Program-made: the position numbers and the translations under genes
Assembly (NCBI RefSeq): GCF_013282745.1
Contig: NZ_CP054044.1
Coordinates: 3,844,001-3,908,000 of the forward strand
DNA length: 64,000 bases
Reading direction: 5' to 3'
Source: Yersinia bercovieri ATCC 43970
GTDB taxonomy: Bacteria > Pseudomonadota > Gammaproteobacteria > Enterobacterales > Enterobacteriaceae
Shown here: positions 22,811 through 30,102 of the stretch, piece by piece
Position numbering within the stretch: position 1 is the first letter of the stretch
Layout of the letters: the number at the start of each line of letters is the position of its first letter
The notes under the pieces: model-generated
Databases searched by the model: none
The model's input: only the letters and a program-made list of their open reading frames with translations
Told to the model about the DNA's origin: nothing

Positions 22811-23629
22811 TCAGCCGCGGGCATAAGCCGCCGCTTTTTCAAACAAAGCCGGATCAGGACGAATGCCGGTATACAGCACAAATTGCTCAACCGCTTGAAT
22901 GGCAAATACTTCAGCACCGGTAATCACCGTTTTTCCTTGCATTTTGGCATAACGGATCAGTGGGGTAATCGCCGGCAGCGCCACCACATCAAAAATGGTA
23001 TCTGCATGGTTAACTTCATTTTCAGTGAAAGCCATGTTGTCCGCCTCTTTGCCCCCAGCCATACCCACTGGCGTAGCATTGATGAGCATATCGGCCTGAA
23101 CCCCTTGCATATCAGGGCGATAGCGGTAGCCCGACTGCTCAGCTAATTGCTTACCGGTTCTTTCATTGGTTGCAATGATAAAGCCCTGCTTAAAACCGGC
23201 ATTTTTGAGGGCAAACGCCACCGCCTTCGCCATCCCCCCACTGCCACGTAGCGCAAAAACTTTATCGCTCGGCACCTGATAGGTCTGTAGCAATTGCGCG
23301 ATGGCGAGATAGTCAGTGTTGTACGCCGTCAAATAGCCATCAGTGTTAACCAAAGTATTAACCGAATTAATTGCTGCGGCTGATGGGGCCATCTCATCCA
23401 CCAGCGGGATAACCGCCTCTTTAAATGGCATTGAAATGGCGCACCCCCGGAACCCAAGCGCCCGCACGCCACCAATGGCCGCAGCCAAATCCGTGGTGGT
23501 GAAGGCCTTATAGAGGTAATCGAGATCGAGCGCATCATACAAAAAGTTATGAAAGCGGGTGCCGAAGTTGCTGGGTCTGGCGGCCAGAGAGATACAGACT
23601 TGGGTATCTTTGTTTAGGTAGCGAGTCAT
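22811..23629 (-). CDS. Shikimate 5-dehydrogenase-like protein (SDH-L / HI0607 type)
   Basis: 272-residue member of the AroE superfamily. The catalytic Lys (MPFKEAV, about residue 68) and Asp (YNTDY, about residue 104) are conserved and a nucleotide-binding turn GSGGMAKAVAFAL is seen at about 129. The AroE substrate motif SxS near the N-terminus is replaced by SLAARPSNFG, as in the HI0607-like group, which has low activity on shikimate; the true substrate is unknown. It is 78 nt upstream of hinT, on the same strand. Confidence 0.82.
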   Translation of the reverse strand: MTRYLNKDTQVCISLAARPSNFGTRFHNFLYDALDLDYLYKAFTTTDLAAAIGGVRALGFRGCAISMPFKEAVIPLVDEMAPSAAAINSVNTLVNTDGYLTAYNTDYLAIAQLLQTYQVPSDKVFALRGSGGMAKAVAFALKNAGFKQGFIIATNERTGKQLAEQSGYRYRPDMQGVQADMLINATPVGMAGGKEADNMAFTENEVNHADTIFDVVALPAITPLIRYAKMQGKTVITGAEVFAIQAVEQFVLYTGIRPDPALFEKAAAYARG

Positions 23630-24253
23630 CTTATTGCCTCAAATATCATCGTCAAAAGGGTTGCGCCTAAATAAAAGCCGCCGAACAGGCGCAGGGCGCG
23701 CACCTAAATAATCTAGGCTGGTTTGATTTCCAAACCACCTGGCTGGAGCCGGAATAGTTGCAACCTACGTAAAGGGGTGCACTAACGTCATTTACTCATT
23801 GAAAGAGTATCGGCTTAGATTGCGGCCTGGTGATAAATATAGGCGGAGTCATCACCGGGCGATAGCGCTTATGGTGCAAAATAGTTATCTTGGTACCGAT
23901 AATTATCAATTTCATCCCACTTAAATATGATAAGTGATTAAATTATATTTATCATACAGAAATAGCCAACTACTTAAATTGAAAGCCTAACATAACGAAT
24001 TCACTTAATTAATATTACCGCGCCATATCGCGATAATAAAAATAGTTATCTCCTTTGACACGACGATATATTCAGTGATAGTTTTAACTCAAGGGAAGTA
24101 GGAGAGCGTGTAATTGCACTGAATTATAGAATTAAGATATACATGTGATATATTCCCATAAGCAAAAATAAAGACTCGCGCAATAATACTTTCCTTAACT
24201 GAAAAGCCCAAGAAATTATCTCTTGGTTTTTATCATCAATGGAGGGATTAATT
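23630..24253. promoter_or_regulatory. AT-rich leader upstream of the peptide cluster
   Basis: 624-nt spacer, strongly AT-rich from about 23900. It contains an inverted repeat TATGATAA (23926-23933) / TTATCATA (23949-23956), a possible regulator site, and a terminator-like hairpin CCAAGA / TCTTGG followed by five T at 24208-24231, directly before the GGAGGG ribosome site of the precursor gene. The hairpin could attenuate readthrough into the cluster. No small ORF with a usable ribosome site was found between. Confidence 0.5.
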
Positions 24254-24409
24254 ATGTCTAGTTTGAAAAAAGAGATCATGGCAACAAAAACTGTCGTTAA
24301 TGTTAGCGAAGCTAAACGGAATCACCCTCAGCGCTTGGCAGAAGATGTCCTTGAGCAGATAGCTGGCGGGTGGATAAATGCTTTTGCTCGGTGGGGAAGA
24401 GCATTCTAA
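24254..24409 (+). CDS. xyeA: XyeA-type ribosomal peptide precursor (triceptide precursor)
   Basis: 51 residues, too short for most gene finders. Leader residues 1-39 are charged and end in the double-glycine motif VLEQIAGG; the predicted core, residues 40-51, is WINAFARWGRAF. It contains three aromatic-X-X motifs, W40-I-N42, F44-A-R46 and W47-G-R49, the kind of site where XyeB-family radical SAM enzymes join the aromatic ring to the beta carbon of the third residue. A GGAGGG ribosome site lies 7 nt before the ATG. The next genes encode the modifying enzyme and an exporter with a Gly-Gly-cleaving peptidase, which fixes the interpretation. Which rings actually form is inference. Confidence 0.88.
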   Translation: MSSLKKEIMATKTVVNVSEAKRNHPQRLAEDVLEQIAGGWINAFARWGRAF

Positions 24410-24424
24410 TTTTTAATCATATGC

Positions 24425-24452
24425 GGGCTGCCATTGGTGGCCCCTATTTTTT
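24425..24452 (+). terminator. Attenuator-like terminator between precursor and enzyme gene
   Basis: GGGCTGCC / GGTGGCCC, an 8-bp stem with two G-U pairs and a 3-nt loop, followed by CTATTTTTT. It begins 15 nt after the precursor stop and 57 nt before the xyeB start. A partial terminator here would give much more precursor mRNA than enzyme mRNA, as is common in peptide gene clusters. Confidence 0.65.
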
Positions 24453-24508
24453 ACTTATTAACTCTACAGCCCAGACATATTTATTAACGCTGGGAGGAGT
24501 GTAGCCTC

Positions 24509-25693
24509 ATGGTCAATATATCAAGTAAAAAAAGCATTCAGCACCTTGAAATTATATTAAAAATAAGTGAGCGCTGTAATATCAACTGTGACTATTGTTA
24601 CGTATTCAATAAGGGAAACTCAATCGCTGATAATAGCCCAGCCAGAATCTCCAATAAAAACATTGAACAATTGGTCTATTTTTTACAGCGAGCTTGTCTG
24701 GAATATGACATTGCCACCCTACAAATTGATTTCCATGGCGGGGAACCGCTATTGATGAAAAAAGAGAATTTTGCCAGCATGTGTGATCAACTCACGACAG
24801 CTGACTATGGCCGTTCGAATATCAGTCTTGCATTACAAACTAATGGAACGCTTATTGATGATGAGTGGATCTCGTTATTTGAACAGTATTTAGTATACGT
24901 CAGTATCTCAATTGACGGCCCTAAACATATTAATGACAGACATCGCTTGGACACCAAAGGGCGCAGTACCTACGAGGGCACGGTACGTGGTTTGCGTATG
25001 CTGCAAAATGCCTATAAGCAGGGACGACTTCAGGCAGAACCGGGCATTTTATGTGTTGCAAATCCTCAGGCGAATGGGGCTGAAATCTATCGGCATTTCG
25101 TGGATGACCTTGGTGTCTATGGTTTTGACATTCTGATACCCGACGACGCATACAACGATACCTACGCAGATCCCGTCAGCATGGGGCGCTTTCTTAACGA
25201 GGCATTAGACGAATGGATGAAAGATGATAACCCCAAGATTTTTGTCCGCCTCTTTCAAACACATATTGCTACTCTTCTCGGCGCAAAAAAAGTTGGTGTT
25301 TTGGGTCACACGCCCGAGGTCACAGGGACCTATGCCTGCACTGTCGGTTCAGATGGTTTGATTCGTGTGGATGATACCTTACGGTCTACATCAGACAGAA
25401 TTTTCAATGCGATTGGTCATGTTTCTGAAATTAACCTCTCTGATGTAATAAATAGTCCGCAATTTCAAGAATATGTATCTATTGGGAAATCCTTACCCAC
25501 CGAATGCACAGGCTGCATTTGGGAAAATGTCTGCGCCGGTGGCCGCATTATGAATCGTTTTTCCCCCGAAGAGCGCTTCAACCGTAAATCTGTTTATTGC
25601 TACTCCATGAGAAGTTTCCTGAGCCGTGCATCTGCTCACTTGCTCAATATGGGCATCAAAGAAGAGCGCATTATGGCAGCCATTAGCCAATAG
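24509..25693 (+). CDS. xyeB: XyeB-type radical SAM/SPASM cyclophane-forming enzyme
   Basis: 394 residues. The radical SAM [4Fe-4S] cluster motif is Cys23-x3-Cys27-x2-Cys30 (CNINCDYC), followed by the SAM-binding DFHGGEPLLM (about residue 75). The C-terminal SPASM domain holds further Cys residues (YACTVGSDG, CTGCIWENVC, YCYSM) for one or two auxiliary clusters. It is expected to act in the cytoplasm on the XyeA core, making C-C bonds between an aromatic ring and a side-chain beta carbon (three-residue cyclophanes). GGGAGGAG lies about 10 nt before the ATG. Assignment to the XyeB family rests on the precursor type and synteny; other SPASM peptide maturases are more distant alternatives. Confidence 0.87.
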   Translation: MVNISSKKSIQHLEIILKISERCNINCDYCYVFNKGNSIADNSPARISNKNIEQLVYFLQRACLEYDIATLQIDFHGGEPLLMKKENFASMCDQLTTADYGRSNISLALQTNGTLIDDEWISLFEQYLVYVSISIDGPKHINDRHRLDTKGRSTYEGTVRGLRMLQNAYKQGRLQAEPGILCVANPQANGAEIYRHFVDDLGVYGFDILIPDDAYNDTYADPVSMGRFLNEALDEWMKDDNPKIFVRLFQTHIATLLGAKKVGVLGHTPEVTGTYACTVGSDGLIRVDDTLRSTSDRIFNAIGHVSEINLSDVINSPQFQEYVSIGKSLPTECTGCIWENVCAGGRIMNRFSPEERFNRKSVYCYSMRSFLSRASAHLLNMGIKEERIMAAISQ

Positions 25694-25743
25694 TTTTTTG
25701 TCACCAACAGATTTTGGCTAAATGCTGAAGGAGCGCCCACAAA

Positions 25744-27048
25744 TTGGTCAATATACACCCTATTTTCAGACAAGAGGCGATAGCGCATCGATCTCACTAT
25801 TGGTTAGGCAGCCCGCAAGTGATGACACCGATGGGTGCCTCTATTTGGGCAATGATAGCGCTGGTGTTTATTGTTAGCCTGGTAACCTTCATGGTGGTGG
25901 GGACTTACACACAGAGAGCGCGCCTTACGGGCACCGTGGTTCACCAACCTGCGGTGGCGCGGATCACCGCTACCCACGATGGCGTGATTGTCCGTAGCTT
26001 TGCTGAAGAAGGAAAAGCGGTTCGTGCCGGTGAGGTAATTTTTATTGTTAACCGGGAGACGCAAACCGAGTATGGCGCGACGAGTCATGAAATGAGTGCC
26101 GCACTAAAGTCGCAGAAAGTCACTATTGAGCGGGAGATCACGCTGAAATCTGCGGCGGCAGATACTGAGCAAAACTTTCTTCGTCAACTGCTGGCAAACA
26201 AAGAGACCGAGCAGCAAAAAATGGACGATTTGATTGCCAAATCCGCACAGCAAACTTCATGGTTATTGGCAAAAGCAGAGCACTTTAAAAAGTTAGTTCG
26301 TCAGGGAATTGCCCTTGAGACAGAGCATATGGCACGCCTATCTGAGTATTATAGCGCCTCGGTTCAACTCAAAACCCTCCGGCGGGAAAAGGTCAAGCTA
26401 CAGGCGGAAGTCGTCAGCATACAAGCACGGTTAGCCGCAATCCATAGCGAACTTGCCGCTACCTTGGAGGGGCTGCATCGACAAACTGCCCAGTTGGATC
26501 AAGATTTAGTCTCTACGGAAGAGCGGCGGGAGTTGTATATCACTGCGCCAATCGATGGTGTATTAACTGGCATCACCGGGCTAACTGGCAACAATATTCG
26601 GGCAACACAAGAGTTAGCCAGTGTGGTGCCAACATCAGGGCGGGCCGAGGTGGAGATTTTTGCTGCCACCGACGCCATTGGCGAGTTACGTGAGGGCCAG
26701 ACAGTAAGGCTGCGCTTCGACGCCTACCCATACCAATGGTTTGGGCAATACGACGGTACTGTTACTTCAATCTCTACCACCGCAATTTCCAGCGCCGCCA
26801 GCGAAAGGGCTTTAGCCGCAAATGGGGTGCAGACTCATCACTCTCCATCTCCATTAAAGTATTTCCAAATACGCATCAGCCCCAAGAGTGATGGGGTATT
26901 ATTAGCCGGAGAAACCTACCCGCTGCAGCCGGGGATTGGTGTTGAAACAGATATTTTCATCAGAAAACGTCCTCTTTACCAATGGCTACTCTCCCCCCTC
27001 AAAAGCACTCTCAGCACGACGAGAAGTGAAGTGGGAGATGCCGTATGA
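25744..27048 (+). CDS. HlyD/CvaA-family periplasmic adaptor of the peptide exporter
   Basis: 434 residues. One N-terminal membrane helix (about 30-54), a biotinyl-lipoyl-like half-motif (ARITATHDGVIVRSF ... GKAVRAGEVIF), a long coiled-coil hairpin (about 115-260) and a beta-barrel ending in IGVETDIFIRKRPLYQWLLSPL. It should link the inner-membrane ABC exporter to TolC. The start is TTG at 25744, with AAGGAG 10 nt upstream; it is read as Met. The stop overlaps the start of the next gene (ATGA), so the pair is translationally coupled. Confidence 0.88.
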   Translation: MVNIHPIFRQEAIAHRSHYWLGSPQVMTPMGASIWAMIALVFIVSLVTFMVVGTYTQRARLTGTVVHQPAVARITATHDGVIVRSFAEEGKAVRAGEVIFIVNRETQTEYGATSHEMSAALKSQKVTIEREITLKSAAADTEQNFLRQLLANKETEQQKMDDLIAKSAQQTSWLLAKAEHFKKLVRQGIALETEHMARLSEYYSASVQLKTLRREKVKLQAEVVSIQARLAAIHSELAATLEGLHRQTAQLDQDLVSTEERRELYITAPIDGVLTGITGLTGNNIRATQELASVVPTSGRAEVEIFAATDAIGELREGQTVRLRFDAYPYQWFGQYDGTVTSISTTAISSAASERALAANGVQTHHSPSPLKYFQIRISPKSDGVLLAGETYPLQPGIGVETDIFIRKRPLYQWLLSPLKSTLSTTRSEVGDAV

Positions 27049-29204
27049 TCGCCAGCACAATGAAGGGCTACTTTGAAGCGCTGCGCCAACGCCTGCCGGT
27101 GGTGATGCAAACAGAAGCCACGGAGTGCGGGCTGGCCTGTATGGCGATGGTTGCGGGCTATTATGGCCTTAACATCGATCTCCAGGCACTGCGCAAACAC
27201 TATCAAGTGTCGCTAAAGGGCATGTCGCTACGGGATCTCATCGTACTGGCTGATCGGCTATCATTGGGGTCACGCCCGGTGCGTGCTGATTTAGACGCCG
27301 TCCCTCAGCTAAAAACCCCCTGTATTTTGCATTGGTCGTTTAACCATTTTGTGGTGCTAAAGAAATTCTCTCGCCACGGGGCCATCATTCATGATCCAGC
27401 AAAAGGTGAGAGACGAATCTCTATTACGGAGTTATCTCAACACTTTACCGGCATCGCCCTTGAGATTTGGCCTAATCAGCGCTTTCAGCGGCGTACTGAA
27501 AAACAGGTCATTCGACTGCTGGACATGTTCAAAAACGTGTCTGGATTGTCGCGGGCACTAGCACATGTATTAGCCCTCTCATTTGCCATTGAACTTCTGA
27601 CCATGGCAGTGCCGATGGCGATTCAATTCACTGTCGATATGGCCTTACGATCTGGCGATATCAATCTGGTCACACTCATCGTCTGGGGGATTGTTGCCCT
27701 ATTAATCTTCCGAGCGTTACTCAGTTTGGTTCGTTCCTGGACGTTGATGTCTGTTAAGTACTCGTTGGGTCTCCAATGGAGCTCAGGGCTTTTTAGCCAT
27801 TTGCTTCGACTACCGGCTTCCTATTTCGAAAAACGGCATATTGGTGATGTGTCGTCGCGCTTTAACTCGCTCTCGGTGGTGCAAGATGCTTTTACTGCGG
27901 AGATGGTTGCATCACTGCTGGATATTGTGGTGGTGATTGGACTGCTCTTTTTAATGTCGGTCTACAATGGCTACCTTACGGCAGCGGTTGTGTCTCTATC
28001 CTGCATCTATGCCACCATAAAATTCTGTCTTTTTCGCGCCTACCGCTCTGCCAACCTTGAAGCTATTGCTCACGAAGCGAAACAACATTCGCACTTCCTT
28101 GAAACAGTACGCGGTATCAATGGCGTTAAAATTTTTAATTTAGCAGAACGTCGGCGTTCCGATTGGCTCAATCTGGTTGTCGATGAAGCCAATGCAAAGA
28201 TCTACCTTTTTAAAATAGATCTGGCGACACAGACGGTAGGGCTGCTGTTAATCGGGATATCTTCCGCAATGGTACTGTGGTTGGGCGCGAAGCTGATTGA
28301 TGTAGGCACCATGACCACCGGTATGCTATTCGCATTCTTAATTTATTCGGATATGTACATCACCCGAACCATTAGCGTGGTTGACTCAATAATCAAACTC
28401 CGTTTGATTGATATGCACAGTGAGCGCCTCTCTGAAGTGGCACTTACCCCACCTGAATCTGATGAGGGTGAGATGAATTTAGTCATGCCCACCCCCCTCG
28501 CTGGCACTATTGACGTAAAAGAGCTGAGCTATCGCTATGGTGATGGCGAACCTGCGGTATTTGAGAATATCTCTCTGTCTATCAAGGCGGGAGAAAGTAT
28601 CGCCATCGTCGGGCCATCGGGTTGTGGTAAATCAACACTGCTTAAAACCATGGGGGGGTTAGCCCCGCAAGAGAGCGGCACCATATTATTGGATGGCATA
28701 GATGTGCGGCGATTGGGCCTCGAGGCCTACCGTAAACATATCGCCTACGTCTTACAAGAAGACCGACTCTTTGCGGGGTCTTTGCTGGATAACATCAGTT
28801 CATTTGATATTCATCCAGATAGCGAATGGGTGTTTGAGTGTGCTCGTCTTGCTTCAATTCATTCTGAGATTGAAGCCATGCCAATGAAATATGAAACCAT
28901 GGTCGGTGATATGGGCAGTGCGTTGTCCGGTGGGCAGCGGCAGCGTATCTCTCTGGCCCGCGCCTTGTACAAACGCCCGCGAATACTATTTCTCGACGAA
29001 GCGACCAGTGATCTGGATATCGATAATGAAGCCCGAATTAATGATTCGATACGCGCGTTAAAAATCACCCGCATTTTTGTTGCCCACCGTCCGTCAATGA
29101 TAGCGATGGCGGACCGGGTATTTGACCTCAGCACCAACACTGAAAAGGAAAAGGAAACTCCTCATGCACTTTTTACTGAAAGAAAACATCATGTCATTGA
29201 ATAA
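27045..29204 (+). CDS. Peptidase-containing ABC transporter (C39) for the modified peptide
   Basis: 719 residues. The N-terminal C39 cysteine peptidase has an intact catalytic set: Gln22, Cys28 (QTEATECG), His101 (FNHFVV) and Asp117 (IIHDP). It should cut after the Gly38-Gly39 of the precursor. Six-helix membrane domain about 165-420, then an ATPase with Walker A GPSGCGKST (about 521), signature LSGGQRQRISLARAL (about 626), Walker B ILFLDEATSDLD (about 646) and switch His (VAHRPS). It overlaps the adaptor gene by 4 nt and the next gene by about 14 nt. This is a CvaB-like bacteriocin exporter. Confidence 0.92.
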   Translation: MIASTMKGYFEALRQRLPVVMQTEATECGLACMAMVAGYYGLNIDLQALRKHYQVSLKGMSLRDLIVLADRLSLGSRPVRADLDAVPQLKTPCILHWSFNHFVVLKKFSRHGAIIHDPAKGERRISITELSQHFTGIALEIWPNQRFQRRTEKQVIRLLDMFKNVSGLSRALAHVLALSFAIELLTMAVPMAIQFTVDMALRSGDINLVTLIVWGIVALLIFRALLSLVRSWTLMSVKYSLGLQWSSGLFSHLLRLPASYFEKRHIGDVSSRFNSLSVVQDAFTAEMVASLLDIVVVIGLLFLMSVYNGYLTAAVVSLSCIYATIKFCLFRAYRSANLEAIAHEAKQHSHFLETVRGINGVKIFNLAERRRSDWLNLVVDEANAKIYLFKIDLATQTVGLLLIGISSAMVLWLGAKLIDVGTMTTGMLFAFLIYSDMYITRTISVVDSIIKLRLIDMHSERLSEVALTPPESDEGEMNLVMPTPLAGTIDVKELSYRYGDGEPAVFENISLSIKAGESIAIVGPSGCGKSTLLKTMGGLAPQESGTILLDGIDVRRLGLEAYRKHIAYVLQEDRLFAGSLLDNISSFDIHPDSEWVFECARLASIHSEIEAMPMKYETMVGDMGSALSGGQRQRISLARALYKRPRILFLDEATSDLDIDNEARINDSIRALKITRIFVAHRPSMIAMADRVFDLSTNTEKEKETPHALFTERKHHVIE

Positions 29205-30102
29205 ACATATTATAGCTATCACAATGACTCTCTTAACCTCTCTCCTCTCACTGGCGGCCCTCAATGCTACCGCAGCAGAGAAAGTCATGCATATGCCCTT
29301 TGAGTGGGATAAAACCTCGAACCCCTTGGTCAAAATTGACATCAACGGCATGCGCCAGACATTTTCAATTGATACAGGCTCCAACACTGGCCTGCATTTA
29401 ACGGAAGAGGTTATGGCTCAACTCCCCGAATTAGTCATTGATGCAGAAAAGCATCGCGCTATCGATCTGGCTGGCAACGTCTCTTTTAATGATAAGTTTC
29501 ACATCCCCCAAGTCTCAATTAATGGCATGACATTTAAGGATGTCAAAGGGGTTTCATTTACCCCTTGGGGGCTAACTCTCACCCCTGACAGCAGCCTCCC
29601 CGACTCAATGGTCATTGGTTTGGGCTTATTTAAAGAAAAGTCAGTGATGTTAGATTACAAAAACCAGCGCATCTCCGTTGCTGATAATACTCAAGAGTTG
29701 GGCATCAATATAGCTGATGGTTGGCTCTCATTACCGCTGCGACTCACCCAAGAAGGGATTAAAATTAAAGTCTCGCAAGATAAAAAACAGTACAACATGG
29801 TGTTGGATACTGGTGCCACCTTCTCGGTTTTTTGGAAAGAGCGGCTTAGTCGCCCTGTGACTGATATTCCCTGCCGCGCCGTGCTGGCAGAAGTACGCAT
29901 TGAAGGAGACATTGAGGGCTGTGTAGCTTCGGCGTTTCAGCTTAGCGAAATGGGTGCCGAGGGGATAAAACTGAATGCAGTATTATTAGACGGATCATTC
30001 AAGCAGATGGATGCCGATGGAGTAATCGGCAATAACTTCCTTCACCAATTCGCCATGGTAATTGATTTCCCTGGTCAGCAGTTGCTTATAAAGCCGTTTT
30101 AG
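29191..30102 (+). CDS. Exported protein with two Asp-Thr-Gly motifs (retropepsin-like aspartic protease)
   Basis: 303 residues from the ATG at 29191, which gives a classical signal peptide (basic start, hydrophobic stretch, NATAA-E cleavage region). An earlier in-frame ATG at 29164 has a better ribosome site (AAGGAAA) and would add 9 residues. Two aspartic-protease active-site motifs are seen: Asp61-Thr-Gly (SIDTGSNTG) and Asp206-Thr-Gly (VLDTGATFS), suggesting two lobes in one chain. The C-terminal part reads DGVIGNNFLHQFAMVIDF, as in retropepsin-like bacterial families. The start lies inside the exporter gene, so it belongs to the same operon. It could trim the exported peptide in the periplasm, degrade it for self-protection, or do neither. 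Confidence 0.75.
   Translation: MSLNKHIIAITMTLLTSLLSLAALNATAAEKVMHMPFEWDKTSNPLVKIDINGMRQTFSIDTGSNTGLHLTEEVMAQLPELVIDAEKHRAIDLAGNVSFNDKFHIPQVSINGMTFKDVKGVSFTPWGLTLTPDSSLPDSMVIGLGLFKEKSVMLDYKNQRISVADNTQELGINIADGWLSLPLRLTQEGIKIKVSQDKKQYNMVLDTGATFSVFWKERLSRPVTDIPCRAVLAEVRIEGDIEGCVASAFQLSEMGAEGIKLNAVLLDGSFKQMDADGVIGNNFLHQFAMVIDFPGQQLLIKPF

Follow-up and report, generated by a model that had tools for sequence, protein, structure and literature searches.

A predicted Xye-family triceptide operon in Yersinia bercovieri and the linked aspartic protease gene that may protect its producer

Cross-linked peptides which block BamA are antibiotic leads against Gram-negative bacteria, and how their producers survive is an obvious question to which no answer was found in the literature searched. 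This question is raised by positions 24254–30102 (+ strand) of a 64,000-nucleotide stretch of the genome of Yersinia bercovieri ATCC 43970 (contig NZ_CP054044.1; the whole stretch is called the window below), which, judged by sequence, almost certainly hold a complete operon of the Xye triceptide family. The locus adds a further member to this already known family, and comprises genes for a precursor (XyeA), a radical S-adenosylmethionine (SAM)/SPASM maturase (XyeB), an HlyD-type adaptor, a C39-peptidase ABC exporter and an exported, two-motif aspartic protease, here called AspP. We put forward, tentatively, that AspP could be a periplasmic protease dedicated to immunity against Xye triceptides, which would make it, to our knowledge, the first self-protection assigned in this class, and that solitary copies of AspP in Xenorhabdus could be a defence against the Xye peptides of neighbours, in an arms race readable from the genomes. 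A search of titles and the opening lines of abstracts returned no aspartic or aspartyl protease connected with such peptides, which does not prove that none has been published.

The original prediction, made from the letters of the window, had proposed five co-directional genes of the Xye family, and all five were found on one strand, with coordinates in agreement. The profile comparison that it suggested was run, and both curated models were exceeded: the 51-residue precursor (xyeA, 24254–24409, +) matches TIGR04495 over residues 2–51 of 51 with 104.2 bits (cut-off 33; 2.8e-30), and the 394-residue maturase (xyeB, 24509–25693, +) matches all of TIGR04496 (profile positions 1–385 of 385) with 797.2 bits (cut-off 450; 1.8e-240). 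Because these cut-offs are exceeded we assign the locus to the Xye family, and the same five-gene set recurs in Yersinia, Photorhabdus and Xenorhabdus. XyeB carries the Cys-x3-Cys-x2-Cys motif (C23-x3-C27-x2-C30) and scores far lower with the DarE (79.9 bits, cut-off 650) and DynA (121.7 bits, cut-off 450) models. The adaptor (25744–27048, +, TTG start) is over the cut-off of PF13437, with 128.1 bits for TIGR01843, under its cut-off of 208.65, and the exporter (27045–29204, +) is over those of PF03412, PF00664 and PF00005, with Cys28 placed in a TECGLAC motif. As the exporter frame begins within the last codons of the adaptor and the AspP start falls inside the exporter frame, we take the genes as one coupled operon.

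The last gene, AspP (29164–30102, +, alternative start at 29191), is over the cut-offs of PF13650 and PF13975, and its candidacy casts doubt on the earlier statement that the locus has no obvious immunity gene. A hydrophobic, signal-like stretch at its N-terminus is followed by two Asp-Thr-Gly motifs, so that the active-site Asp motif occurs twice, as in clan AA. The active-site residues Asp61 and Asp206 (numbered from 29191) are invariant in all 29 AspP sequences of an alignment of linked, solitary and decayed-locus copies, where they belong to eight invariant columns, and in 30 of 30 sequences of a second alignment. The protein scores 19.5 bits with TIGR03698, under the cut-off of 57.35, and a search of its sequence against solved structures gave no match at E 0.1. 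An AlphaFold2 model built from 30 aligned sequences is mostly beta (mean predicted local distance difference test score, pLDDT, 87.1; predicted template modelling score 0.82), with low confidence over the first 30 residues (pLDDT about 55–60).

AspP adjoins XyeB in 17 of the 18 fetched loci whose XyeB is uninterrupted and shares at least 44% identity with that of the window, the exception (L025) being a 5.9-kb contig that ends 2.1 kb downstream and in which the exporter is not seen either. Over these 17 loci, which were chosen for the presence of both genes, the pairwise identities of XyeB and AspP are correlated (r 0.95, reached in 0 of 5000 permutations), although common ancestry would by itself produce a degree of correlation. 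Two gene orders were found: AspP is last in Yersinia and Photorhabdus, and xyeB-AspP-adaptor is the order in all seven fetched Xenorhabdus loci whose XyeB is 53–60% identical; a Xenorhabdus bovienii megaplasmid has this second order too, with AspP labelled a hypothetical protein in its annotation. Of seven loci with weaker XyeB relatives, six were also fetched (all but that of G400), and an AspP match was present in three (G225, G190 and, weakly at 4e-8, G346). Linkage and co-divergence of this kind would also suit a maturation protease, which would trim N-terminal leftovers after the C39 cut or complete leader removal and confer no immunity, and some precursors do have extra residues between Gly-Gly and core (GGAGW in G015) that a second protease could trim. 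We consider this role unlikely: the core of the window directly follows Gly-Gly, so that no trimming is needed, and a maturation protease would be useless without a precursor, yet constrained, full-length AspP genes stand alone in six of 30 Xenorhabdus genomes.

These solitary genes came from a survey of 30 Xenorhabdus genomes (the genus of G319), of which 20 have an AspP match of some kind and eight an XyeB over the cut-off. Persistence where biosynthesis is absent is what an immunity protease would be expected to display, and in six of them (G319, G442, G434, G438, G427 and G444) a full-length, Yersinia-type AspP, 53–57% identical to that of the window and 61–72% to the linked copies of Photorhabdus, is present without xye neighbours: XyeA, XyeB, the adaptor and the exporter were sought at E 0.01 in the surrounding 17.0–19.9 kb and none was found. 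Five of the six (L194, L271, L272, L273 and L274) occupy the same place, flanked by dauA and, at the opposite end, by kdsA and prfA. The 15 pairwise ratios of non-synonymous to synonymous substitution (dN/dS) lie between 0.14 and 0.34, by which measure the solitary gene is under purifying selection. Four of the genomes have no XyeB over the cut-off, and two (G319 and G434) carry xye clusters elsewhere, each with its own, different AspP. In a tree the five syntenic copies group with the linked copies of Photorhabdus (support 89/84) and the sixth has no resolved position. Three further Xenorhabdus genomes (G451, G211 and G437) hold only short pieces of a Yersinia-type AspP, at 46–55% identity, so the solitary type of gene also gets lost.

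AspP could instead be a general envelope-stress protease, dealing for example with outer-membrane proteins stalled at BamA, which xye clusters took up and which is found on its own as well. Such a protease would still aid survival of the producer under BamA inhibition, and it would account as well for distant AspP relatives that are unlinked to xye, which occur on a Paracoccus plasmid (32.5% identical), in several f27 genomes and in Xenorhabdus (26–30%). Around two of the distant Xenorhabdus genes (in G443 and G428) xyeB was sought and not found. Against this stands the distribution in Yersinia, where, among 25 genomes, xyeA is found in nine, AspP matches are confined to exactly the same nine, and xyeB is uninterrupted in six; we hold a general envelope role to be improbable. 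This role and that in maturation nevertheless take most of the probability which the immunity reading leaves. Tandem pairs of AspP-like genes, 25–31% identical to that of the window, were also seen, one (L198 in G405, f27) near a distant C39 exporter and one (L200 in G095, f16) with no other xye match.

Decayed loci provide a second view of which genes outlast the others, in small numbers (n=4). In the four loci with a broken or missing xyeB (G012, G009, G004 and G451), neither xyeB nor adaptor nor exporter is full-length in any, and AspP is open and full-length in two (G012 and G451) and nearly so in a third (G009). The locus of G012 has an interrupted xyeB, a deletion that cuts adaptor and exporter, an extra stop in the exporter and a changed precursor start, with AspP open. 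G451 retains small relics of xyeB and adaptor beside an open AspP, and G009, a Y. aldovae, has a shortened xyeB, no adaptor, and an AspP open to about residue 277–279, close to where the contig ends (in a second Y. aldovae record, P0016, AspP is 306 amino acids long). Genome annotation leaves out pseudogenes, and two further counts were not used as support: AspP cluster P0014, which bears the name of Y. enterocolitica, has an intact gene on 734 contigs, and among the 120 listed of 650 XyeB clusters the only one from Y. enterocolitica is a 305-residue piece on 7 contigs. The AspP of G012 is closer to P0024 (2 contigs) than to P0014.

The same decay raises the suspicion that the cluster of the window, intact by sequence, is silent or non-functional in this genome, since xyeB is broken or lost in three of the nine Yersinia with xyeA, and in a fourth (G023) xyeA is frame-shifted while xyeB is intact and all four other genes match along their length. 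The region has about as many promoter-like sites as chance would give (11 against 10.5 expected). All five frames of the window are, however, open and conserved, and for AspP of the window, of Y. aleksiciae and of G015 the pairwise dN/dS is about 0.2, and we regard a silent cluster as very unlikely.

Several observations weigh against an immunity role of AspP. G004 keeps only pieces of the cluster and its AspP is split over two frames, a counter-example to persistence; the first motif of the AspP of G012 is DTE instead of DTG; and the exporter of G009, although it lacks its first 54 residues, is mostly open (residues 55–712), so that AspP is not the sole survivor there. Distant AspP-like genes (26–30%) are found also where no XyeB exceeds the cut-off, in the Xenorhabdus genomes G428, G429, G430, G435, G443 and G453, and loci with weaker XyeB relatives in G129, G050 and G442 (L216) have an exporter and no AspP match. 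The tree support is only 89/84, which makes loss of the cluster around AspP likely rather than proved. Moreover, the cross-links may leave the peptide too rigid to be readily cleaved by a protease, and the biosynthetic chemistry as well as the activities of peptide and AspP are predictions.

Self-protection by other means was considered. According to the available text of PMC12971899, xenorceptide A2 takes up the position of a strand in the BamA barrel, between b1 and b16, its first and last strands, and by analogy BamA may be the target of the peptide of the window. Immunity through the target was rejected: a second BamA was sought in the 25 Yersinia genomes, each of which has one BamA over the cut-off, and in an alignment of Yersinia BamA compared column by column, no column splits the five Yersinia with intact clusters from the 16 in which xye has no match at all. 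Given this lack of a producer-specific difference, if BamA is the target then something other than an altered BamA probably protects producers. Export alone is a possible protection.

The sequence data support family membership, gene order, and the conservation of AspP and its persistence without xyeB, and from these we propose the following mechanism. XyeA would be made on the ribosome and bound through its leader by XyeB, which would link W1–N3, F5–R7 and W8–R10 of the core by C–C bonds, giving three cyclophanes with a loss of 6 Da. The C39 domain of the exporter is expected to cut after Gly-Gly and remove the leader, and exporter, adaptor and, presumably, host TolC would pass the 12-mer outside in one step, where it would block BamA of rival Gram-negative bacteria as xenorceptide A2 does. 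Type I export moves a peptide from the cytoplasm to the outside in one step, thus bypassing the periplasm, so that a periplasmic protease would meet only re-entering peptide; this is the peptide that AspP, as a self-immunity protease located there, would most likely degrade. We regard the joint account, from operon and ring formation to C39 cut, TolC export, BamA block and AspP immunity, as probable, though we hold it less firmly than the operon's identity, since inference enters at its later steps. The use of host TolC had been presumed in the original prediction, and this genome does encode, elsewhere, one TolC-type channel that exceeds the cut-off of its family. A second TolC-like frame (G000:C1:597128-598396, L288) has one internal TAG and 138.9 bits, under the cut-off of 225.15.

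The ring positions are suggested by the precursor, in which a 39-residue leader ending in Gly-Gly precedes the core WINAFARWGRAF with its three aromatic-x-Asn/Arg motifs, WIN, FAR and WGR. The available text of PMC11002830 describes three-residue Trp-Arg, Trp-Asn and Phe-Asn rings for XncB, the relative that has been studied, and by the same pattern rings are to be expected at W-I-N and W-G-R. The middle ring is a point against the proposed structure, as Phe-Arg (F-x-R) is absent from the XncB products listed in that same text (PMC11002830). The corresponding motif is FLR, FAN, FVN, FLN or YAR in the other intact loci of Yersinia and Photorhabdus. With three rings the core would have a computed [M+H]+ of 1488.73, against 1494.78 unmodified. 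Its C-terminal residue is Phe in all seven intact Yersinia and Photorhabdus loci, the window included, and in the seven Xenorhabdus loci with XyeB 53–60% identical the core ends in Phe in two (G319 and G434), Phe-His in one (G445) and Leu or Ile in three, while in G447 the precursor frame continues past the core. We abandoned a beta-signal-like reading of this C-terminus for want of a conserved Gly. An XyeB 60% identical to that of the window (P0135) is recorded under Xenorhabdus nematophila, and the precursor of the Xenorhabdus locus L209, with the core WINAFGNWERAFH, may be XncA itself. A search with XyeA against a large protein set returned only the protein of the window, which we read as a limit of short queries, and a search with a tandem of the core as query gave no noteworthy match.

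Between xyeA and xyeB, a hairpin followed by CTATTTTTT (24425–24443, +) could conceivably act as an attenuating terminator, a weakly based assignment: terminator-like sites number 10 in the region against 7.0 expected, and the fold of the spacer RNA has a z of -0.92. By a rule of our own, a hairpin with a T-rich tail is present in this spacer in five of the seven intact loci, with differing hairpins among them. An Rfam scan of the locus found no family at gathering scores.

The genomic site had been described as the hinT-ptsG junction. ptsG does adjoin the cluster (NF008301, 989.7 bits); hinT is not directly adjacent, as a shikimate 5-dehydrogenase gene (22811–23629; NF009202, 478 bits, cut-off 306) intervenes. 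In eight of the nine Yersinia xye loci the cluster sits between the dehydrogenase gene and ptsG, or has at any rate the former as its neighbour (L026 shows the left flank only). In the ninth, that of G009 (L121), hinT, the dehydrogenase gene and ptsG are all missing from the 13.0 kb around the xye remnant, and the site is thus not universal; this contig also carries bamA, some 14 kb off, and this genome is without a close relative of the dehydrogenase gene. An origin from a mobile element was rejected, given the chromosomal site shared by eight of nine loci and the lack of any XyeB at least 60% identical on plasmids: all 191 matches in the plasmid records searched are below 60%, including that of the X. 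bovienii megaplasmid (53.9%). The XyeB of the window shares 86% identity with its Y. aleksiciae counterpart. In Y. thracica (L022, 16881–17086), matches to C4 antisense RNA and isrK, which we take to be phage-type RNAs, lie between the xye cluster and ptsG, perhaps as prophage DNA at the same site.

Left of the operon lies a relic of sgrR (23668–23754, +), its final 29 or so codons, 90% identical to residues 568–596 of the SgrR open reading frame (ORF) of another Yersinia; that reference, the single ORF of this kind scanned, exceeds NF010149 (566 bits, cut-off 476). In four examined Yersinia without xye, the interval between dehydrogenase gene and ptsG holds an open sgrR ORF of about 600 codons, and in a fifth (G021) it is just 205 bases. 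The spacing from dehydrogenase gene to xyeA is 625 bases here against 2281–2417 in seven other Yersinia xye loci with this flank, which on the sequence retain room for sgrR, and in G004 the sgrR stretch still aligns. The closest remaining SgrR-like protein of the genome is 50% identical over query residues 3–310 and 36% over 357–595, and loss of sgrR may change glucose-phosphate stress control.

The locus resembles those of other Xye triceptides and xenorceptides (XncA/XncB-type loci) in its Gly-Gly leader, its W-x-N, F-x-N or R, and W-x-R motifs, its XyeB maturase, HlyD adaptor and C39-ABC exporter, and its AspP neighbour, and differs in its own core, in a middle ring that would be Phe-Arg and, unlike the seven fetched Xenorhabdus loci with AspP between XyeB and HlyD, in having AspP last. 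With darobactin and dynobactin it shares a short peptide cross-linked by a radical SAM enzyme and the presumed target BamA, although its maturase is far below the DarE and DynA cut-offs. The dar operon, as described in the available text of PMC7616364, has the darBCD transporter and no protease. The same text describes the nisin resistance protein NSR as a serine protease which inactivates a modified peptide by degradation (PMC7616364). AspP would likewise be a peptide-degrading resistance protease, in its case a two-motif aspartic protease of predicted activity. AspP looks like the missing immunity factor, and this is the main point of interest of the locus: a linked AspP with conserved solitary copies offers a concrete gene on which self-protection against these peptides can be tested.

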